Below are positions 1 to 8,239 of a DNA stretch of 8,239 nucleotides, piece by piece. The position numbers and the translations under genes were made by a program. The stretch is from contig PATE01000007.1 of the NCBI GenBank assembly GCA_002712305.1, positions 1 to 8,239 on the forward strand, written 5' to 3'. The notes under the pieces are model-generated. The model was not told the origin of the DNA, did not search any database, and saw only the letters and a program-made list of their open reading frames with translations. This DNA comes from Gemmatimonadota bacterium. GTDB taxonomy: Bacteria; Latescibacterota; UBA2968; UBA8231. Numbering within the stretch: position 1 is the first letter of the stretch; each line of letters opens with the position of its first letter.

Positions 1-68
1 TTGGAGATCAGTGTATCCACATCCCAGTCCTTGGCGATCTGATAGGTCACCACACCCAATCGAAACAT
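1..68 (-). CDS. Sugar-phosphate isomerase/epimerase-like TIM-barrel protein, N-terminal fragment (runs off left edge)
   Basis: Only the first 22 codons lie in the window, reading MFRLGVVTYQIAKDWDVDTL and then Ile-Ser. The opening 'hydrophobic-GVVTYQ' strand followed by 'KDWDVDTLI' resembles the first beta strand and helix of xylose-isomerase-like TIM-barrel proteins (AP endonuclease 2 superfamily), often annotated sugar phosphate isomerase/epimerase. The ATG has a good ribosome-binding stretch just upstream (GAAGGTAGGTAGAG, 82-69). It begins 58 bases after the stop of the M20 gene on the same strand, so it is probably the next gene of the operon. Such proteins usually isomerise or epimerise keto-sugars, or act on inositol derivatives, with a divalent metal. 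None of the metal ligands is inside the window, so the family call rests on the N-terminus and the neighbours. The start is well supported and the function only moderately. Confidence 0.68.
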   Translation of the reverse strand, partial: MFRLGVVTYQIAKDWDVDTLIS

Positions 69-126
69 CTCTACCTACCTTCTCTCTGTTACGTAGTCGA
101 CGTAGTAGTTCTGTGTGATAGGCGCC

Positions 127-1470
127 TCAGACGAGGCTAGCTCCATCATGCACGTCGGTCCGAAAGATCTCTTGTTGCTGTCGCAAGTAGTCCGTCTTCG
201 TCATGGCCGGCTCGAAGGCATCCATGACACGCTTCGCCTTGTGAGCATTGCCGCTGAGCAACTCCACCGCCATCATGGCCATCGTCTTGGCTGGCGCAAG
301 ATATCCGTCATCGGTGTCGGCAATGTGCCAATCCTTGCCATGCACGATTCCGCGCGCTCCAGTCATCACGGGGTGCAGGACCGGCATGAGTTGACTCAGG
401 TCTCCCGCATCCGTCGACCCACCAGAGTGGGGCAACTCGCGATAAGCGTCGTCGCCAAACAAGGCCGTCGTGGTTTCACGGAACACTTCCGCCAGCCCTT
501 CATCATTGGCAAGGGGCAGATATCCGGGCACGGTTTCGACCTCGACGGTACATCCAAAAGCGATGGCCGCCGCTTTCAGGGAACGGTCCACCTTGGCCGC
601 CGCATCGAGCATGGCCTCTGATGTACGAGCGCGCACGTAGGTCTCCATCCGTACCTCGGCGGGCACGATGTTGACGATATCACCCGCCTTGGTCAGGATC
701 GGGTGCACACGAACACAGTCCTGGTCGCGGAAGGTCTCCCGCTGGGCATTGATCGCATTCAGCGCCAGGGTCGCCGCATTCAGTGCGTTGATGCCCTGCT
801 CCGGAGCGACACCCGCGTGGGCTGCCTTGCCCACGAAACGGGCCGTCTTGGCGAGAAAACCATTAGAGGAGCCCGATACTCCCACGGCGCCCTCCAGCGA
901 ATCTGCCGATCCCGTATGGATCATGATCGCCATGTCGATGTCGTCGAACGCGCCGAGTTTGACCAGTTCCGGTTTCCCCCCCAGAAAGCTCGTGCGGCCT
1001 TCTCGGACCAGGCCCAATCGGTAGTCGATCTCCACGTATTCTTCAGCAGGCACCGCAAAAAACACGATCCGTCCGCTGATCCTGTCTTTGAGATCTGCCG
1101 CCGCGACGCCGATGGCAGCGCCCACCATTCCTGCGATCTGCGCATTGTGTCCACAGGCATGGGCTGCGCCTGTCTGTGCGTCGCAGCGTGGATGATCGGG
1201 CACGATGAGCGCATCCAGTTCACCCATCAGCGCCACGGTAGGTCCGGGGCGGCCACTGTCTAGTACGGCGCGCACCCCCGTCAGCGCCAACCCGCTGTCC
1301 GCCTGCAGCCCGGCACTCTGAAAGAGATCCTCCACTCGGGCCGCTGTCTTGGTCTCCTTGAAGCCAAGTTCAGGCTCGTCCATGATCGCTTCACCCAGGC
1401 CAACGATTTGGTCGGCCTCTGCATCGATGGCGTCACAGACGGTCTGTTTCATGGAATCGGTATCGCTCAT
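127..1470 (-). CDS. M20-family metal-dependent amidohydrolase (AbgB/aminoacylase-like)
   Basis: 447 aa. M20D-type peptidases hydrolyse the amide bond of N-acyl or aminobenzoyl amino compounds in the cytoplasm with a di-metal centre. Visible signatures: the substrate-side 'MDEPELGFKE' (30-39), 'LMGELDAL' (81-88), the metal motif HACGHN with Cys106 and His108 (104-109), the paired glutamates in 'VPAEEYVEID' (Glu143-Glu144), His185 in 'IMIHTG', the 'AAHAG' His218 of the dimerisation lid, 'GSTDAGD' (351-357), and a C-terminal 'GIVHGKDWH' with His377 as likely last ligand. HACGHN rather than HACGHD favours the AbgB/indole-acetyl-aspartate-hydrolase-like branch. No signal peptide is seen. The ATG follows GAGGA (1478-1474) by three bases. 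It lies 41 bases after the SDR gene. In this cluster a plausible job is N-deacylation of an amino sugar or amino acid conjugate; the true substrate cannot be read from the sequence. Confidence 0.93.
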   Translation of the reverse strand: MSDTDSMKQTVCDAIDAEADQIVGLGEAIMDEPELGFKETKTAARVEDLFQSAGLQADSGLALTGVRAVLDSGRPGPTVALMGELDALIVPDHPRCDAQTGAAHACGHNAQIAGMVGAAIGVAAADLKDRISGRIVFFAVPAEEYVEIDYRLGLVREGRTSFLGGKPELVKLGAFDDIDMAIMIHTGSADSLEGAVGVSGSSNGFLAKTARFVGKAAHAGVAPEQGINALNAATLALNAINAQRETFRDQDCVRVHPILTKAGDIVNIVPAEVRMETYVRARTSEAMLDAAAKVDRSLKAAAIAFGCTVEVETVPGYLPLANDEGLAEVFRETTTALFGDDAYRELPHSGGSTDAGDLSQLMPVLHPVMTGARGIVHGKDWHIADTDDGYLAPAKTMAMMAVELLSGNAHKAKRVMDAFEPAMTKTDYLRQQQEIFRTDVHDGASLV

Positions 1471-1511
1471 TGTTCCTCAGTTTGGCCTTGAGTCGTTTGC
1501 AGGCGGCTCGT

Positions 1512-2486
1512 TCAGTTGGTAGGAAGGATGCTGACCTGTTCGCCCCGACGAAAGGCGAGACCATCCACGATCATGCGGACGATATCGTATTGAGGAGCGA
1601 ATCCAAGATCATCTCGCGCCCTGGACAGGTCGAAACCATAGTGCGTGGGATTTCCACCCGGCTGAGCATCCACGACTGGAATCTGCAGAAGCTCGCTGAG
1701 ACGATAGACCGCCTCGTCCCAGGTGAAGGGTTTGGGACCGGCCAGTTGATAGATCCGGCCAAAGGAACGTTCCTTCCCCAGTGCACAGTGGCAACCGTGC
1801 ACGATATCTCGCACATCGGCCACGTGCTTCATGAAGGGCCGTCCCTCGTCGTCGCGCAGCAGGACCAGCCTTTCCTCCCCCTCCCATAGAGATGACAATT
1901 TCGGGTTCTGCTTCATCTTGCTCAGGTAGAACTGCGGAAAGTCGATCACCTCGCCAGCCCCCAGGACCATGGCAAAACGAAGAATCGTCACCGGCGAATT
2001 CTGAGATCGGGCATAACTGAGACACATCTGCTCAGCCATGGCCTTCGACAGGGCATACCACCCATTGGGCTTGATCGGCGTCGTTTCGTCGATCGGCCGC
2101 TCCATGCCGCCAGGGACATACTTCTCATACAGCGCATCGGTGCTCGCTACGACCACGTGTTCGATTCCATGTTTTCGGGCCGCTTCCAGAACATGGAATG
2201 TGCCCTTCACATTGATGTCGAGATAGTCGCTCTCGGTGAAGGGACCACCCCCCTGGAAGGCAGCTCCCAGGTGATAGATGACCTGCATGCCTTGCACAGA
2301 TGCATCTACGCTCTGCGCTTCGGTCAGCGTTCCCTCCACAAGCTCGACGCCAAGACCCGCGAGTTTCTCCGTGCGCCGATCTCGTTCCCATACCATACCA
2401 CGGACGCTGTGGCCATCCTGCACGAGCGTCGATGCGAGGTTGGCACCGATCCGGCCCGTGATACCCGTGATGAGGATGTCAGCCAA
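1512..2486 (-). CDS. NAD(P)-dependent epimerase/dehydratase, extended short-chain dehydrogenase (TTG start)
   Basis: 324 aa from the TTG at 2486. Extended SDRs oxidise, epimerise or dehydrate sugars or sugar nucleotides. The N-terminal Rossmann motif TGITGRIG (residues 7-14) directly follows the first beta strand ADILI. The catalytic pair is YALSK (Tyr144, Lys148), with Ser115/Thr116 in 'VASTDALY' as the upstream catalytic hydroxyl. 'HLGAAF' (72-77) and 'DINVKGTFHVLEAA' (90-103) are typical of this family. The C-terminus 'FDLSRARDDLGFAPQYDI' is the usual end of GalE-like extended SDRs. An upstream GTG at 2531 would add 15 residues with no family resemblance and has no well-spaced ribosome-binding site. 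The TTG has GGAGG exactly six bases upstream and puts the start where this family normally begins. It sits 97 bases after the PLP gene and 41 before the M20 gene. The substrate is probably a sugar or sugar lactone and is not determinable here. Confidence 0.91.
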   Translation of the reverse strand: MADILITGITGRIGANLASTLVQDGHSVRGMVWERDRRTEKLAGLGVELVEGTLTEAQSVDASVQGMQVIYHLGAAFQGGGPFTESDYLDINVKGTFHVLEAARKHGIEHVVVASTDALYEKYVPGGMERPIDETTPIKPNGWYALSKAMAEQMCLSYARSQNSPVTILRFAMVLGAGEVIDFPQFYLSKMKQNPKLSSLWEGEERLVLLRDDEGRPFMKHVADVRDIVHGCHCALGKERSFGRIYQLAGPKPFTWDEAVYRLSELLQIPVVDAQPGGNPTHYGFDLSRARDDLGFAPQYDIVRMIVDGLAFRRGEQVSILPTN

Positions 2487-2559
2487 GGCGTACCTCCACA
2501 CGAGGCTGGCCATCTCGGTCGAAATCGTCACGGTAGTTAATGGGTTCTTCCTCGTTCAT
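2479..2559 (-). other. Possible 26-codon leader ORF whose stop overlaps the SDR start
   Basis: An ATG-started frame (2559-2557) reads MNEEEPINYRDDFDRDGQ and continues to a TGA at 2481-2479. It overlaps the TTG start of the SDR gene by eight bases (TTGGCTGA). It is in the same frame as the upstream PLP gene, starting 24 bases after that gene's stop. No well-spaced ribosome-binding site was found for it: an AAGGA lies 13 bases upstream. The peptide is acidic and polar and I do not recognise it. It could be a translated coupling peptide, a small protein, or chance, since 26 codons in a GC-rich leader is not statistically strong. Confidence 0.25.
2493..2497 (-). promoter_or_regulatory. Ribosome-binding site GGAGG fixing the TTG start of the SDR gene
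   Basis: A full GGAGG core lies six bases upstream of TTG (2486-2484). It is the strongest Shine-Dalgarno match near any candidate start of this gene and argues for TTG over the upstream GTG at 2531. Confidence 0.75.
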
Positions 2560-2583
2560 TCGCGTGCTTGCATCCTTCACCCT

Positions 2584-3735
2584 TCAGCGACCCGGACTCG
2601 AGCCGCGCAGAGCGTCCTGCAGACGATCGGCCACGATCTGCGCCTCTCCCTCGGCAAGGGTATGCGGGTGAAGCCTGATCTGCGGGCCCGTTTCGCTTGC
2701 GAATCGATAGACTGACTCCTGGATGAACTGCACGGCGATTCGCGGACGCCCATCGCGGAGGGTATCGATCACCTGTTCGTAGGTGCACCGAAGGGCCTGC
2801 TCATCCCAACTGATCGCCGCATGTGGAATCTGCTGCCCTTCACCGAAAGGCATCTGTCGCCATGCGGTCACCCCTGGAACTGTGCTGGCAGCGTTGAGAA
2901 GTTGCTCGACCCGCCCCTCCCAGAGGATCAGGTCTGCGTCGTGGTCTCGAGCCAGATAAAGTTCGATCGCCTTGACGAGACCCACGATCTCCTCCTTTCC
3001 CGCCTTCATCCCCCGTCCGACGGACATATTCGGACTGTCATTGGTAGCGCACGCCGCGATCAGTGCTGGATCACGGCCGAGGATGACACCACTCGCCTGT
3101 GGGCCGCACAGTGCCTTGCCCCCGCTGAAGGCAACAAGATCGGCACCCTCATCAATGAACCGCCGCAGGTGACCTACTGGCGGAATCTCGGCCGCCGCAT
3201 CGACGATGACTGGCTTCTCCATCTCGTGGGCAATCGAGGCGACCTCGGCCAGTGATAGGGCATGACCGGTATTGAACCAGGAGAAGGTATAAAAGACACC
3301 GGCCACTGACTCGCCTGCCAGGGCCTGCCGAAGCTGACCCGCGTCGGACTCCACGCCCACAAATCGACCACCGACCAATCGCAGCGCCTGATCAAACGGG
3401 TTGCGATGGGCCTCTATAACCACCCAACTATCAGCCATTCCGGTCGTGTCAGGCAGCTGCCGCGCCTTCAGTGGATCGTTCCCGGCCATGACTGCGGCAG
3501 CCATTACCGCGATACCCGCTGTGGCGCTGGCGGTCACATGAGCACCGGGCACTCCGATCAGGTCAGCCACACGTCGACCCGCCATCTCGTGCAATTCCGT
3601 CATCATCACAAAGCACTGACTCGCAGCGGCCATGGCCTCCACGACCTCCGGATGCATGACCGATCCGCTCATCCGCGTCAGGGTTCCGGCGGCGTTGATG
3701 ATCGGGTCGACATCGAGTTGCTGGTAAACGTCCAT
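2584..3735 (-). CDS. SelA/DgaE-like PLP-dependent enzyme (predicted ammonia-lyase or related, not true selenocysteine synthase)
   Basis: 383 aa, fold-type I PLP enzyme of the SelA-like group. Known members include L-seryl-tRNA(Sec) selenium transferase and D-glucosaminate-6-phosphate ammonia-lyase (DgaE). Visible signatures: N-terminal 'INAAGTLTRMSGS' (13-25), the glycine-rich cofactor contact 'TASATAGIA' (68-76), Asp179 in 'VIVDAAAEIPP' (pyridine-nitrogen contact), and 'VAFSGGKALCGPQASG' (201-216) with the Schiff-base lysine Lys207. True SelA is about 460 aa with an extra N-terminal domain that binds tRNA. This protein lacks it and starts directly at the catalytic core, and no selB or selC is present. 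The neighbouring sugar enzymes therefore favour beta-elimination of ammonia from an amino-sugar acid. The ATG at 3735 has AGGA six bases upstream; a TTG two codons earlier would abut that site and is disfavoured. Family is sure, reaction inferred. Confidence 0.9.
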   Translation of the reverse strand: MDVYQQLDVDPIINAAGTLTRMSGSVMHPEVVEAMAAASQCFVMMTELHEMAGRRVADLIGVPGAHVTASATAGIAVMAAAVMAGNDPLKARQLPDTTGMADSWVVIEAHRNPFDQALRLVGGRFVGVESDAGQLRQALAGESVAGVFYTFSWFNTGHALSLAEVASIAHEMEKPVIVDAAAEIPPVGHLRRFIDEGADLVAFSGGKALCGPQASGVILGRDPALIAACATNDSPNMSVGRGMKAGKEEIVGLVKAIELYLARDHDADLILWEGRVEQLLNAASTVPGVTAWRQMPFGEGQQIPHAAISWDEQALRCTYEQVIDTLRDGRPRIAVQFIQESVYRFASETGPQIRLHPHTLAEGEAQIVADRLQDALRGSSPGR

Positions 3736-3737
3736 GG

Positions 3738-3827
3738 TCAATCCTGTGCGTTGGGGCTCTGGGTGTTGAGACTCACATGCACAGACTCGCGCTGCAGAGG
3801 CTCAGGAATGATCGGGCGCTCAGACAT
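3738..3827 (-). other. Possible 29-codon ORF bridging the Gfo/Idh/MocA and PLP genes
   Basis: An ATG at 3827-3825 overlaps the stop of the upstream oxidoreductase gene (ATGTCTGA). The frame, beginning MSERPIIPEPLQ, runs to a TGA at 3740-3738, two bases before the ATG of the PLP gene. The fit at both ends is what translational coupling would look like, but the frame is also the tail of a longer shadow frame running through the oxidoreductase gene, and the peptide matches nothing I know. It may equally be chance. Confidence 0.22.
3742..3745 (-). promoter_or_regulatory. Ribosome-binding site AGGA deciding the ATG start of the PLP enzyme
   Basis: AGGA lies six bases before the ATG at 3735-3733 and touches the alternative TTG at 3741-3739. 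Only the ATG has usable spacing. Confidence 0.55.
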
Positions 3828-4824
3828 TCCAGCAGCGCTCCGGCTGCCCACTGTCTGCAGAACGATTGGCGGCGATCGATACCGCCGCAGTCCGGAGTCC
3901 CTCCTCGTAGTCGCAAAGGATGTGCGATCGGTCTCCGGTGGCAACAGCACGAACAAAGGCCGCATCGATTCCGTCTCCGTCGTAGGCATCCGGCACGGGT
4001 AGAGCACCTTCGGGCTGAATCACCAGATCGCGTCCGACATCCACGCGCACGTCTTCGAGCAACACCTGCATGTGATTCTGCCCTCCCCCAGCTCGCAGAA
4101 TGCAGCTGGTGGAGACATACCCCACGGCGCCACCGGCAAACTCCAGGACAACAACCTGACTGTCGGGGACGGTCATGCTGGGGATGTCACCTGCCACCTG
4201 GTGACCGTAGCGAGCGAAGACCTGCTCCACATTCCCAGCGATCCAGCGCATGCAGTCTACCTGATGGGTCGTCTGTTCATGTAGCTGGCCTCCGGACTTG
4301 TCGACCTGCCGCCACCAGCTGCCCTCGTCGGCGGGCATGCCACCCCAGCGATCGGAGCTGATCATCGCAACCGACCGAGCGTGCAACAGATCGCGTGCGG
4401 TTCGCCATGGGTGTCGGTACCTCAGGGTGTACCCGACACTTGACATGATGCCCGCTGTTTCGATGGCCTCCATGATCTGAACCCCCTGCTCCAACTCGAG
4501 AACGACAGGTTTCTCGACGAACAGATGAAGGCCTGCAGAGGCGGCGAGAATCTCAACATCTGCATGTGCGAAGGGAGGTACGCAGACATACAGCGCATCG
4601 AGCTGGTCGGCCTGTTGATCGAGCAGCGTCCGATGATCCGAGAACACCCCAAGTGCCCCGCATTCCTCGGCGACCTGTTTCGCTCGATCCGCATCGAGAT
4701 CGCAGACAGCAACCACGTCGACTACGGGCTCTTGCGACGCCTCGTTGAGGGCCTGCAACTGATTGAGATGATGTCCTGCGATGCCGCCGGTTCCTACGAA
4801 GGCCACCCGTACGGGCTGGGTCAT
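3820..4824 (-). CDS. Gfo/Idh/MocA-family NAD(P)-dependent oxidoreductase
   Basis: 334 aa. This family oxidises or reduces a hydroxyl or keto group on sugars, inositols or sugar acids. The N-terminal Rossmann domain opens with 'VAFVGTGGIAGHH' (7-19). 'VCDLDADRA' (40-48) closes the second strand with acidic residues, pointing to NAD rather than NADP. The hallmark EKP is at 104-106. The catalytic-domain motif reads 'GGQLHEQTTHQVDCMRW' (178-194), with His187 and Asp190 in the usual H-x-x-D positions and Glu183 where many relatives have Asp; this is a recognised variant of the subfamily. Length is normal. The ATG has AAGGA five bases upstream (4834-4830). It follows the sulfatase by 44 bases and precedes the PLP gene by 84. 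Its likely role is redox conversion of the sugar released by the neighbouring enzymes. The substrate is not readable from sequence. Confidence 0.95.
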   Translation of the reverse strand: MTQPVRVAFVGTGGIAGHHLNQLQALNEASQEPVVDVVAVCDLDADRAKQVAEECGALGVFSDHRTLLDQQADQLDALYVCVPPFAHADVEILAASAGLHLFVEKPVVLELEQGVQIMEAIETAGIMSSVGYTLRYRHPWRTARDLLHARSVAMISSDRWGGMPADEGSWWRQVDKSGGQLHEQTTHQVDCMRWIAGNVEQVFARYGHQVAGDIPSMTVPDSQVVVLEFAGGAVGYVSTSCILRAGGGQNHMQVLLEDVRVDVGRDLVIQPEGALPVPDAYDGDGIDAAFVRAVATGDRSHILCDYEEGLRTAAVSIAANRSADSGQPERCWNV

Positions 4825-4868
4825 GAGGTTCCTTTCAATGGATCACCGATCCGATCAAGCGCCGTGGC

Positions 4869-6377
4869 TCACGCGCCGGCGATGCGTGGCATCACCAGGG
4901 GTTCCTTGCCCAATTCAGCATGCAGGAGACGTCTCGTCAATTCAGCCTTGAGATCTGCCCACCCGGGATCGGACCAATGATTGTCGATCTCCTGTGGGTC
5001 CTGCTGCAGATCGAACAATTCTCCCTCGTCCCGGCCGTAATGGACGGTGAGTTTGTGTGTCTGATCCACGAACGTCCGCGTGTGGATGGTGGTCGGCTCA
5101 TGGCGGTTCTCCACGATCGCGTGGTCACGGACCGCTTCGACTGTGCCTGTCCACACGGGAGTCTGGTCGGCACCACTGATTCCCCAGTCTGCGCTCAAGC
5201 CGGCTGCACCGAGAAAACTCGGCGCCATGTCCACGAGGCTGAGGATGGCATCACTCTGACTCCCGGCCTGCACACGGTTCGGCCACCGGACGAGGAAGGG
5301 CAGTTTTACCAGATCCTCGTAGTGGAATGGCCCCTTGGCCGTCATCCCGTGTTGACCAAACAGGTGTCCGTGATCGGTCGTGAAGACGACGAGCGTGTTC
5401 TTTGCGAGGCCCGTCTTCTCCAGATGGGTAAGGATCCGCCCGATGTATTCATCCATGAGACTGATCATGCCATAGTACACGGCCATATTTTGACGCATCT
5501 CGTCGGCACCATGCAGGTGCGAGTGCATGCCGTGAATTCCGAAGCCACTCTCTCGCCAAGCAGAGAAATCGGGCTCTTTCTCCTGAGTCATGCGGAAGTG
5601 AAGCGGATTCACATCGTGCTCACCCTCCACAATCTGCGGCAGGGTCAGGTCCGCCGGATCATACATCGCATGCCACGGATCGGGAGCCAGATACGGAGGA
5701 TGAGGATCGAAGAAGCTCGACCACATGAAGAAGGGCTCATCACCTGCGGCGTATGTATCGAGGAGTCGCTGCGACTCCTCGGCAATCCACGCATTGTAGT
5801 GATACTTCTCCGGGATTTCCCAGCGATGCTTCTGACGATCATTCGTACCCGTGGGAGGCCGGTAGTAATCGCGCCAGTTGTGGCAGCCATTGTCTTCCAT
5901 CCAAATGGCATAGTGCTGCCCCACATGGGCCTCATCAGCATGGTTGCGGGCAAGCCGAACCGTATCAAACCCATAAAAGGGTTCATTAAACTGTCGCCAG
6001 AAGTCGAGATCTTGAAGGATTGGATACGATTCAAGGGACCGGTATCGATCAGTCTCCTGCAATGGCTGAAAGTGGGCCTTGCCTACCAGACTCGTGCGAT
6101 ATCCCGCACGGCCGAGTGCATCCCCTACCGTCGGCACATCCTCCATCAGTTTCGTGCCCAGACTCCAGGCGCCGTGATCGCTGGGATACAAGCCGGTAAT
6201 CATGGATGAGCGCGACGGAGTGCAGGTTGGATTCGGGCAGTATGCCCGGTGGCAACGCATGCCTTCAGAGGCCAGTCGATCCAGATGGGGCGTACTGATT
6301 TCGGGGTTCGTAGCCCCCAACGTATCCCAGTGTTGCTGGTCGCTGGTGATGAAGAGAATGTTTGGTCGATCACTCAT
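4869..6377 (-). CDS. Type I (formylglycine) sulfatase, predicted cytoplasmic
   Basis: 502 aa, normal for the family. Type I sulfatases hydrolyse sulfate esters using a formylglycine made from Cys or Ser. Visible signatures: 'RPNILFITSDQQHWD' (4-18) with the calcium-binding Asp13, 'STPHLDRLASEG' (28-39), and the maturation/catalytic motif CTPSR (52-56), with Cys52 the predicted formylglycine, followed by 'MITGLYPS'. Other active-site candidates are Lys100 and His102 ('GKAHF'), His226 in 'DPHPPY', Asp335-His336 in 'TTDHG' (calcium) and Lys348 in 'TAKGP'. The N-terminus goes straight into the first beta strand with no signal peptide, so the enzyme should act in the cytoplasm on an imported small molecule, as choline-sulfatase-like enzymes do. 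A sulfatase-maturing enzyme is not in the window. It follows the TSUP exporter gene by 24 bases. The start has only a weak ribosome-binding site, which fits coupling to the upstream gene. Confidence 0.96.
   Translation of the reverse strand: MSDRPNILFITSDQQHWDTLGATNPEISTPHLDRLASEGMRCHRAYCPNPTCTPSRSSMITGLYPSDHGAWSLGTKLMEDVPTVGDALGRAGYRTSLVGKAHFQPLQETDRYRSLESYPILQDLDFWRQFNEPFYGFDTVRLARNHADEAHVGQHYAIWMEDNGCHNWRDYYRPPTGTNDRQKHRWEIPEKYHYNAWIAEESQRLLDTYAAGDEPFFMWSSFFDPHPPYLAPDPWHAMYDPADLTLPQIVEGEHDVNPLHFRMTQEKEPDFSAWRESGFGIHGMHSHLHGADEMRQNMAVYYGMISLMDEYIGRILTHLEKTGLAKNTLVVFTTDHGHLFGQHGMTAKGPFHYEDLVKLPFLVRWPNRVQAGSQSDAILSLVDMAPSFLGAAGLSADWGISGADQTPVWTGTVEAVRDHAIVENRHEPTTIHTRTFVDQTHKLTVHYGRDEGELFDLQQDPQEIDNHWSDPGWADLKAELTRRLLHAELGKEPLVMPRIAGA
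5759..5781. repeat. Perfect 10-bp inverted repeat inside the sulfatase gene
   Basis: Arms CGAGGAGTCG (5759-5768) and CGACTCCTCG (5772-5781) are exact reverse complements separated by three bases. They encode roughly residues 199-206 of the sulfatase (AEESQRLL). In the transcript this would form a GC-rich hairpin with a tight loop. No T-run follows on either strand, so it is not a standard terminator. Confidence 0.6.
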
Positions 6378-6401
6378 GTTCCATTGCCTGCCCGTATCAG
6401 A

Positions 6402-7133
6402 TCAGTGCCTCAGTACGATCGCCGAGATGCCACCGACGGCGACCAGACCGATCGCCAGCCGACGATAGATCTCTCCATCGACGCGGCGCTTCATCCACAG
6501 ACCCAACACCAGGCCCACCGTGATTCCTGGAGCGCTATGCAGCGTGAAATCCAATGTGCCTCCGTCGAGAAGCCCCACCTGTCCGAAGGCGACCAGAATG
6601 CTTCCGTGAAGGAGAAAAAAGTAGCCAATGAGATCGGCGCGAAAGCCCCCATGGGCCCACCTCTGTTTCAACCCGAGAAGCACGACGGGTGGTCCCGTCA
6701 TACCGCTCACGCCTCCGATCATCCCTGACAGCATCCCTGCCACCGAGCGGGCAACCCCTTCGCGAACTAAAGGCTCACCTCGCCGAATCACCAGCACCAG
6801 GACGGCGGCGATCGACGTGGCTCCGACGATGGTTCGAATCGTCGCAGAGGGCAAGGAGGCCAATCCATGTACGCCGAGAGGCATGCCCAACAGGGCAAAC
6901 AGAAGCAGATGCAGAATCCGTCGTGGCGACATCTGACGATAACACTCCACCACCAGAACGAGTGTCAGCGGCGTCGCACTCAGAAGGACCACAGGTGCCG
7001 CAACGACGGGGTTTAGCAGCAGCACGAGAAAGGGCATCGCGATCAGGGCATATCCAAATCCCGTGATGGTGCTGACGCACGCGGAGACACCTAGGATCAG
7101 ATTCAGAAGCAAGGGAGTGGGTTCGGTCAGCAC
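6402..7133 (-). CDS. TauE/SafE (TSUP) family membrane anion exporter
   Basis: 243 aa, very hydrophobic, with about seven to eight membrane segments by eye (approximately 8-38, 42-62, 72-92, 97-116, 130-153, 167-186, 203-213, 225-241). Two pseudo-repeated family motifs are visible: 'STITGFGYALIAMPF' (21-35) and 'SGMIGGVSGMTGPPVVL' (136-152). The second half thus mirrors the first, as expected in TSUP proteins. Known members move sulfite, sulfoacetate or related organosulfur anions across the inner membrane. Lying directly upstream of a sulfatase, export of the sulfur oxyanion released from the substrate is the natural reading (inference). The start is GTG at 7133; an in-frame TAA 12 bases further upstream rules out a longer protein. 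The nearest Shine-Dalgarno-like GAGG is about 15 bases away, unusually far, so initiation may be weak or leaderless. Confidence 0.92.
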   Translation of the reverse strand: MLTEPTPLLLNLILGVSACVSTITGFGYALIAMPFLVLLLNPVVAAPVVLLSATPLTLVLVVECYRQMSPRRILHLLLFALLGMPLGVHGLASLPSATIRTIVGATSIAAVLVLVIRRGEPLVREGVARSVAGMLSGMIGGVSGMTGPPVVLLGLKQRWAHGGFRADLIGYFFLLHGSILVAFGQVGLLDGGTLDFTLHSAPGITVGLVLGLWMKRRVDGEIYRRLAIGLVAVGGISAIVLRH

Positions 7134-7184
7134 CGTTGTTGTAGGTTACCTCGCGTCCCCGTCCAAAATGAAAGGCACATGATC
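7134..7184. promoter_or_regulatory. Compact divergent intergenic control region
   Basis: About 50 bases separate the GTG of the minus-strand exporter from the ATG of the plus-strand enolase-superfamily gene. Any promoters must overlap here or extend into the coding starts. One weak minus-strand candidate is TTGGAC (7166-7161), a 17-base spacer, then TACAAC (7143-7138). It would start transcription almost at the GTG, giving a leaderless message. No convincing plus-strand promoter and no clear operator palindrome were seen. Confidence 0.35.
7171..7175 (+). promoter_or_regulatory. Ribosome-binding site AAAGG of the enolase-superfamily gene
   Basis: AAAGG lies nine bases before the ATG at 7185 and only three before the ATG at 7179. 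The spacing favours the second ATG, which gives MRISQVDLF, the usual start of the family. Confidence 0.5.
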
Positions 7185-8189
7185 ATGCGCATCAGCCAAG
7201 TCGACCTCTTCGAAGTTTCCATCCCACCCATCCCACCCATCGCGGCGGTGATGCCCAAGATCTATGACATCACCCTCGTACGGATCATGACCGACGAAGG
7301 ACTCACCGGCTGGGGAGAATGTCAGGGGCGCAAAGCCGACCTCGAAACGCGTTTTCAGTCCTATGTCGGCCAGGACCCTCTGGCGATTGATGCCTTCGCG
7401 CAGACCGACGCGATCAACTGCGCCCTCCTCGATATTGCAGGACAGGCCTGGGGCGTTCCCATGTGGCGGCTGTTTGGTGCGCAGGTTCGCGATCGTGTGC
7501 CCGTCTCCTATTGGTCGTGCCCGATGGAGCCGGCACAAACTGCGGCCGAAGCTGAGGTCGGCGCGCGGGCGGGCTTCACAAATCACAAGCTCAAGGCACG
7601 CCCCTGGAACATCGTCGAAACCATCCGCCTCATGAAGGAGGCGACGGGCCCCGACTATACGGTGGGCGTCGACCCGAACACTATGTTTGTACAGCCATCC
7701 GTCGCCGCCCGACTGGCCAACGAATTGGAACCCTTCGGCACGGTTGCCAACTTTGAGGATCCCGTATTGAAGGACAATCTCGATTGGTATCGACTTCTAC
7801 GCGAGAAAACGTGGATCCCTCAGGCACTCCACCTGGGGGCTCCCTCGGGCGTATTGGCCGCCCTCAAAGCCGAAGCGGTGGACTACGTGAATCTTGGTGG
7901 TGCCGCCGCACAAGTACGCAAGTCGGCCGCTCTGGCTGAGGCGGCCAATGTACCTATCTGGGTGCAGATGGGCGGACTGTGCCTCGGTATCCTTGCTGCG
8001 TACTCCGTGCATCTGCAGTCAACGCTGGCCGCCGCAACCCTGGCCTGCGACGAACTCCCACACATGCGTGTCGCAGACATCACCGATGGATCCCTGCAGT
8101 TGGCGGACGGGCACTTCGTCGTCCCCGAGGGGCCCGGTTTGGGTGTCCACATCGACGAAAAGGTCATCGAGGCATATCGGGTCGCCTGA
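7185..8189 (+). CDS. Mandelate racemase/muconate lactonizing enzyme-family (enolase superfamily) protein
   Basis: 334 aa from ATG 7185 (336 from ATG 7179). Enolase-superfamily enzymes abstract the proton next to a carboxylate held by Mg2+; many bacterial members dehydrate sugar acids to 2-keto-3-deoxy acids. The N-terminal capping domain (about 1-105) includes 'DEGLTGWGECQG' (37-48). In the barrel, the second-strand K-x-K base is Lys135-Leu-Lys137. Metal ligands are Asp163 in 'VGVDPN' and Glu191 in 'NFEDP'. The third ligand is odd: where relatives have 'IPxxxGE' this protein reads 'IPQALHLGAPS' (211-221), with His216/Leu217 in place of the acidic residue. 'VNLGG' (235-239) and 'WVQMGG' (259-264) follow. 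The gene diverges from the sulfatase operon, which suggests shared control. A sugar-acid dehydratase role is inferred; a racemase or epimerase is possible. The altered ligand could mean a different metal geometry or chemistry. Confidence 0.93.
   Translation: MRISQVDLFEVSIPPIPPIAAVMPKIYDITLVRIMTDEGLTGWGECQGRKADLETRFQSYVGQDPLAIDAFAQTDAINCALLDIAGQAWGVPMWRLFGAQVRDRVPVSYWSCPMEPAQTAAEAEVGARAGFTNHKLKARPWNIVETIRLMKEATGPDYTVGVDPNTMFVQPSVAARLANELEPFGTVANFEDPVLKDNLDWYRLLREKTWIPQALHLGAPSGVLAALKAEAVDYVNLGGAAAQVRKSAALAEAANVPIWVQMGGLCLGILAAYSVHLQSTLAAATLACDELPHMRVADITDGSLQLADGHFVVPEGPGLGVHIDEKVIEAYRVA
7221..7241. repeat. 9-bp tandem repeat, 2.3 copies, in frame
   Basis: ATCCCACCC occurs twice in tandem (7221-7229, 7230-7238) followed by ATC. 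It encodes Ile-Pro-Pro-Ile-Pro-Pro-Ile at residues 13-19 of the enolase-superfamily protein, in the capping-domain loop region that usually contacts substrate. Copy number changes would keep the frame. Confidence 0.6.
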
Positions 8190-8223
8190 ACCTGAACCCT
8201 CTCTCAGCTCGTCTCAGGCGACC
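8180..8223. repeat. 10-bp inverted repeat over the stop codon, possible weak terminator
   Basis: GGTCGCCTGA (8180-8189, ending in the enolase gene's TGA) is matched exactly by TCAGGCGACC (8214-8223). A short CTGA/TCAG pair (8192-8195, 8204-8207) can nest inside. The outer loop is 24 bases and no T-run follows on either strand within view, so intrinsic termination is uncertain. The remaining bases to 8239 contain no confident gene; short stop-terminated frames on the minus strand could be the end of a convergent gene. Confidence 0.4.
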
Positions 8224-8239
8224 AGAAAGGCAGACCCGG

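Follow-up and report, generated by a model that had tools for sequence, protein, structure and literature searches.

One end of a conserved Latescibacterota gene cluster with a possible role in the catabolism of a sulfated, N-acylated amino compound

Do the closely packed enzyme genes at the start of one Latescibacterota contig belong to a single pathway, and if so, on what compound might it act? Mucins, glycosaminoglycans, and algal or animal debris are rich in sulfated amino sugars. In most known routes, desulfation takes place outside the cytoplasm and degradation proceeds via phosphorylated sugars. The window, by which we mean the whole 8,239-nucleotide stretch analyzed here, corresponds to positions 1-8239 of a contig 32,443 bases long (G000:C28:1-8239). 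The source genome (4.77 Mb in 146 contigs, 90.9% complete) has as its nearest named relatives metagenome-assembled genomes of Latescibacterota type, part of them labeled Gemmatimonadetes. An initial annotation had proposed that eight gene families in the window act together on a sulfated, N-acylated amino sugar or its acid. The families that it named, their strand, and their tight spacing were all borne out by open reading frames and by Pfam and NCBIfam searches. Six minus-strand genes run leftward into a TIM-barrel gene that the contig edge truncates, the gaps measuring 24, 44, 78, 82, and 41 bases from the TSUP to the M20 gene, and an enolase-family gene departs divergently 45 bases from the TSUP gene:

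1..68, minus strand: 5' end of an AP_endonuc_2 TIM-barrel gene (TIMc6), read from the left-edge sequence with an ATG near base 68; truncated by the contig edge
127..1470, minus strand: M20 amidohydrolase of the TIGR01891 subfamily, likely N-deacylase, core gene (Pfam/NCBIfam, conserved metal-ligand motifs)
1512..2501, minus strand: extended SDR (Epimerase family) with YxxxK, core gene (Pfam/NCBIfam, motif)
2584..3741, minus strand: DgaE/SelA-like PLP enzyme, optional gene (Pfam/NCBIfam, motifs)
3820..4824, minus strand: Gfo/Idh/MocA NAD(P)-dependent dehydrogenase, optional gene (Pfam/NCBIfam)
4869..6377, minus strand: formylglycine-type S1 sulfatase with CTPSR at residues 52-56 and no evident signal peptide (Pfam/NCBIfam)
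6402..7133, minus strand: TSUP (TauE/SafE) membrane exporter (Pfam PF01925)
7179..8189, plus strand: divergent enolase-superfamily gene of a clade with His218 at the third metal-ligand position (Pfam/NCBIfam, alignment)

Beyond the right edge of the window, a second AP_endonuc_2 TIM-barrel gene (contig 8320-9174; L002) adjoins the enolase gene. This pair is kept in G001, G012, G005, and G009; in G002 the TIM barrel stands alone beside the TSUP gene. Catalytic signatures are intact and kept in relatives for the sulfatase (C-T-P-S/T-R), M20 (HACGHN/PAEEY), DgaE-like (SGGK/RxMKxGKE), and SDR (YxxxK) proteins.

Extent and conservation of the cluster

Orthologous gene order was found again in other genera, at protein identities of about 60-85%, and this recurrence indicates that the cluster is more than chance. 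By protein comparison across fetched loci, the order enolase-TSUP-sulfatase-Gfo/Idh/MocA-DgaE is identical in a genome of the same genus (G001, L024) and in G012 (L025). Ortholog-level matches to the sulfatase were detected in 12 of 64 genomes of the phylum (the source genome and 11 others). All nine of those in the window's own family (f1), which represent five genera, lie within ~7 kb of an M20 and/or SDR core; the three outside it (G051, G036, and G045) have no M20/SDR core nearby; for one of these, the contig is just 4 kb long. The recurring order is TSUP, sulfatase, optional genes, SDR, M20, TIM barrel, and class IV transaminase, together with a convergent aldehyde dehydrogenase gene and a gene for a SUMF1-like lipoprotein, and in nine genomes a sodium:solute symporter (SSF) gene stands at the far end. 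The idea of a conserved catabolic-type operon is thus upheld. A chance neighborhood of unrelated genes is hardly credible: the genome is indeed rich in sulfatases, enolases, and dehydrogenases (its 4.77 Mb yielded 47 sulfatase, 74 MR_MLE_C, and 12 DgaE-like matches), and the optional genes vary between clusters, but the core order is maintained in several genera with proteins 60-70% identical, and every f1 sulfatase ortholog adjoins that core.

The cluster also extends to the left of the window. In G001 it continues over two contigs, C26 and C71, joined by an exact overlap of 141 bases that falls within a gene similar to those for PhyH dioxygenases (a name tested with Pfam only for the gene at the corresponding place in G007). 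The continuation encodes this PhyH-like protein, the SDR, M20, TIM barrel, and a D-amino-acid transaminase, then an aldehyde dehydrogenase, a SUMF1-like lipoprotein, and a sodium:solute symporter. Full orthologs of the truncated TIM-barrel gene lie between the M20 and D-amino-acid transaminase genes in relatives, and one of them matches Pfam AP_endonuc_2; no solved relative of this core TIM barrel was detectable by sequence. An importer, for which the initial annotation had advised looking past both edges, is present in relatives, as the symporter at the cluster's far end, whose nearest solved relatives are choline transporters. No kinase, aldolase, or glycosidase was found in the conserved cluster. 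In the source genome itself, whose contig stops at this point, TIM-barrel and transaminase orthologs were not found, and a symporter search at 1e-80 across nine genomes, this one among them, gave no match, which is weak evidence of absence for a search that had no positive control. The contig breaks off within the TIM-barrel gene, so these missing genes are most simply explained by an assembly gap, with loss as the alternative.

The eight families of the initial annotation are not conserved together, and we ruled out the eight-gene set as a unit. The Gfo/Idh/MocA and DgaE-like genes occur in only three of the nine f1 sulfatase clusters (G000, G001, and G012), and the core is found without a nearby sulfatase in G015 (which has TSUP), G008, G014, and G004 and, distant from the enolase gene, in G018, G024, and G020. 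The persistent core is SDR-M20-TIM barrel-transaminase-aldehyde dehydrogenase, with the DgaE-like and Gfo/Idh/MocA genes optional. Since this core exists without a sulfatase (G015, G008, G014, G004, and G018), sulfation is inessential to its substrate, and the sulfate step is an add-on. The window genes are one end of a real cluster that is longer than the window shows.

The enolase gene, in turn, is not cluster-specific, because it is widespread in the class: matches at E <= 1e-30 were obtained in 47 of 47 class genomes (with at least 60% identity in about 30 of the 47), including families that have no sulfatase and M20 cluster, and in many genomes the gene lies distant from the cluster. The initial annotation had described a divergent enolase resembling sugar-acid dehydratases. 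Its superfamily and orientation stand, but the dehydratase label drew only on weak scores, and the residues are noncanonical. In an alignment of 34 rows at >=60% identity (the window sequence counted twice), from which we assigned ligand and acid/base positions, KxK, D165, and E193 are invariant and the third metal-ligand position is His218. On the second face, where an acid/base Lys or His is expected, all 34 rows carry Asn238 (NLGG) and Gln263 (VQMGG). The protein thus departs from MR-type sugar-acid dehydratases, which combine three acidic metal ligands with a second-face Lys/His. Given a His in place of Glu/Asp as third ligand and the second-face Asn and Gln in the aligned orthologs, assignment as a sugar-acid dehydratase is unjustified, and canonical sugar-acid dehydration should not be assumed. 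AlphaFold, given three enolase sequences, produced a poor model (mean pLDDT, 45).

Predicted desulfation and sulfate export

The sulfatase motifs CTP[ST]R, GKAHF, FDPHP, DHGH, and KG-FHYED were kept in 13 of 13 sequences. The protein combines the maturation motif and the Asp/His/Lys active-site residues of formylglycine-dependent S1 sulfatases, and a maturing enzyme, which the initial annotation had advised looking for, is encoded in the same genome: one anaerobic sulfatase-maturing enzyme (anSME; TIGR03942, G000:C139) scored 520 bits against a cutoff of 349. The TSUP gene adjoins the sulfatase gene in eight of the nine f1 genomes (a contig edge interrupts the ninth), and its product is likely to export sulfate or sulfite. 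The formylglycine motif, the adjoining TSUP gene, and the anSME together make desulfation likely. Among solved proteins, the sulfatase comes nearest to an S1_30 sulfatase, choline sulfatase, and GlcNAc-6-sulfatase-type enzymes, though it is close to none of them. Related sulfatases at 51-52% identity lie within sugar ABC-transporter clusters on plasmids of Shinella and Phaeobacter; around Paenibacillus sulfatases at 61% identity, the cluster was not seen. The 61% ortholog in G045 adjoins an alginate lyase gene (L204:7527-10320).

We considered whether the enzyme might instead hydrolyze a phosphate ester or phosphonate, with the exporter genes handling phosphate. The protein matches a PehA-type hydrolase model at 178.6 bits (cutoff, 900), and Na/Pi cotransporter and PhoU-like genes follow the sulfatase in G012, G005, G009, and G002. 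This possibility is nevertheless very improbable, given that the protein reaches a higher score with the arylsulfatase model (241 bits) and that the constant neighbor is TSUP and no phosphate carrier. The Na/Pi cotransporter and PhoU-like genes stand directly after the sulfatase gene or, at L214:7577-9694, after the DgaE-like gene (see also L199, L202, and L197), and possibly constitute an anion exporter.

A lipoprotein with a SUMF1/FGE domain (c7) is kept at the cluster end (L205:7201-8097 and orthologs), and the copies inspected lack the Cys pair of formylglycine-generating enzyme (FGE). We therefore set this gene aside as the sulfatase maturase, for which the anSME is the better candidate. 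A simple pattern search found no Cys-pair FGE motif in eight PF03781 loci of the source genome.

Predicted deacylation, nitrogen removal, and oxidation

The M20 protein passes the TIGR01891 cutoff (206.1 versus 153.75 bits), keeps its metal-ligand motifs in 13 sequences, resembles HmrA and Xaa-Arg dipeptidase, and has matches at E <= 1e-100 in 43 of 64 phylum genomes. As a member of the persistent core, it makes the proposed deacylation likely. Nitrogen removal is also likely: relatives have a D-amino-acid transaminase gene directly after M20, and the window itself carries the DgaE-like gene. The G001 transaminase scores 324.7 bits with PRK06680 (cutoff, 320) and 258.9 bits with TIGR01121 (cutoff, 277.45), and that of G009 falls slightly below both cutoffs. 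The DgaE-like protein shares with DgaE systems a SelA-like PLP fold, the matching PLP lysine, and the RxMKxGKE motif, and it aligns over its full length with 7lc0. It differs in scoring far below both DgaE cutoffs (subfamily, 188.9 bits against 385.3; equivalog, 175.8 bits against 600) and in that no phosphotransferase, kinase, or DgaF aldolase gene was seen nearby. Among 60 relatives, matches at >=60% identity were confined to G001 and G012. The protein is likely an ammonia lyase acting on a 2-amino acid. Neighbors of DgaE homologs in Chloroflexi included no consistent partner; one Chloroflexi genome carries a homolog (55%) directly after two distant sulfatase genes (L028:5957-10864).

The same core could serve a different substrate. 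In families f3 and f4, an M20 homolog (56-59%) directly follows a divergent MraY-like gene (L258:7223-9715, L261:6466-9076, L259:8360-10776, and L257:6861-9255; the label comes from an NCBIfam run on the L258 copy only, at 117 bits against a cutoff of 192), and M20 may thus have a role in amino-acid or envelope metabolism. On this basis, together with the D-amino-acid assignment of the transaminase and the seven genomes in which the core has no nearby sulfatase, the core with its symporter (SDR-M20-TIM-transaminase-ALDH-SSF) might degrade a non-sugar N-acyl-D-amino acid or D-peptide-like compound, the sulfatase and TSUP being add-ons that admit sulfated variants. We consider this somewhat unlikely, since the SDR is similar to sugar epimerases and to uronate dehydrogenase, the TIM barrel is akin to xylose isomerase, and the sulfatase and Gfo/Idh/MocA families mostly work on sugars and cyclitols. 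The best match of the SDR is 4id9, a short-chain dehydrogenase/reductase for which no function is stated; its matches to uronate dehydrogenase are weaker. The SDR likely oxidizes or epimerizes a sugar-like compound.

For the Gfo/Idh/MocA protein, the best solved match is DgpA, which raises the alternative that it oxidizes C3 of a sulfated glycoside and that the TIM barrels eliminate or isomerize the resulting 3-keto sugar, by analogy with systems of the DgpA/DgpBC type. Glycosides with a 3-keto group are known to undergo beta-elimination (PMC10628242), two AP_endonuc_2 genes flank the cluster, and some clusters include a ThuA-family gene. Against this, Gfo/Idh/MocA is present in a minority of the sulfatase clusters and the core TIM barrel resembles no solved protein detectably; such a 3-keto pathway is improbable.

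A possible pathway and its relation to known systems

Taking the conserved core together with the predicted activities, we give about even weight to the reading that the window captures one end of an operon for breaking down a small amino compound that carries sulfate and an N-acyl group, an N-acylhexosamine or the corresponding hexosaminic acid being the most plausible candidates. The sugar ABC-transporter clusters and the alginate lyase gene around related sulfatases favor this reading. Counting against it are the sulfatase-free cores, the MraY-like neighbors of M20 homologs, the choline transporters nearest to the symporter, and a conserved cluster in which no kinase, aldolase, or glycosidase was found. 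Of the sulfated amino-sugar pathway first suggested for the window, desulfation, deacylation, and nitrogen removal are likely, the case for the eight-gene unit and for enolase dehydration is weakened, and the amino sugar is a plausible guess. From gene families, catalytic motifs, gene order, and conservation, we infer a substrate, a reaction order, and every activity as follows. A sodium:solute symporter, seen in relatives and absent from this contig, would import the compound; the cytoplasmic sulfatase, once matured by the anSME that the genome encodes, would split off sulfate, which TSUP would export. The SDR, here together with the Gfo/Idh/MocA protein, would oxidize a hydroxyl or the anomeric carbon, and M20 would take off the acyl group. 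The D-amino-acid transaminase encoded downstream of M20 would remove nitrogen, as might the DgaE-like ammonia lyase in this genus and in G012; the TIM barrel would isomerize or epimerize the product, and the aldehyde dehydrogenase would oxidize the final aldehyde. D-Glucosaminate has D-amino-acid stereochemistry, and M20, the transaminase, and the DgaE-like enzyme could therefore act on one compound. That all of this forms a nonphosphorylative Latescibacterota pathway for a sulfated N-acylhexosamine or hexosaminic acid, running from import through cytoplasmic desulfation, oxidation, and M20 deacylation to the D-amino-acid transaminase and an optional DgaE-like lyase, is a tentative proposal and rather unlikely to be right throughout. 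A literature search on glucosaminate with transaminase returned no match.

Besides the DgaE systems, the closest parallels come from three lineages, each considered here from the relevant excerpts of its source. For Natrarchaeobius, an oxidative glucosamine (GlcN) route has been predicted from chitin clusters with DGA, glucose dehydrogenase, and galactonate dehydratase (PMC12343721). As in our cluster, a dehydrogenase, a DgaE homolog, and an enolase-family gene occur together, and deacetylation precedes ammonia elimination; in contrast, a sulfatase, TSUP, M20, transaminase, and SSF are not described in that excerpt, and that route is likewise a prediction only. Expanded enolase paralogs and sulfatases are described in SAR202 Chloroflexi (PMC6946804), and the abundance of sulfatase, MR_MLE_C, and DgaE-like genes in our source genome represents a large catabolic expansion resembling that case; SAR202 belongs to a different phylum, however, and a comparable conserved operon is not described in the excerpt. 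Latescibacteria have previously been described as having PF00884 sulfatases and an anaerobic sulfatase-maturing enzyme, as found here, and these were proposed to act on algal polysaccharides (PMC4454575). That excerpt concerns polysaccharide desulfation, whereas the present sulfatase looks cytoplasmic and lies in a small-molecule operon. If the proposed pathway is correct, this uncultured lineage would possess a small-molecule route equipped with both an importer and a sulfate exporter, and M20, SDR, TIM-barrel, and enolase families that are poorly assigned would gain a candidate substrate class.
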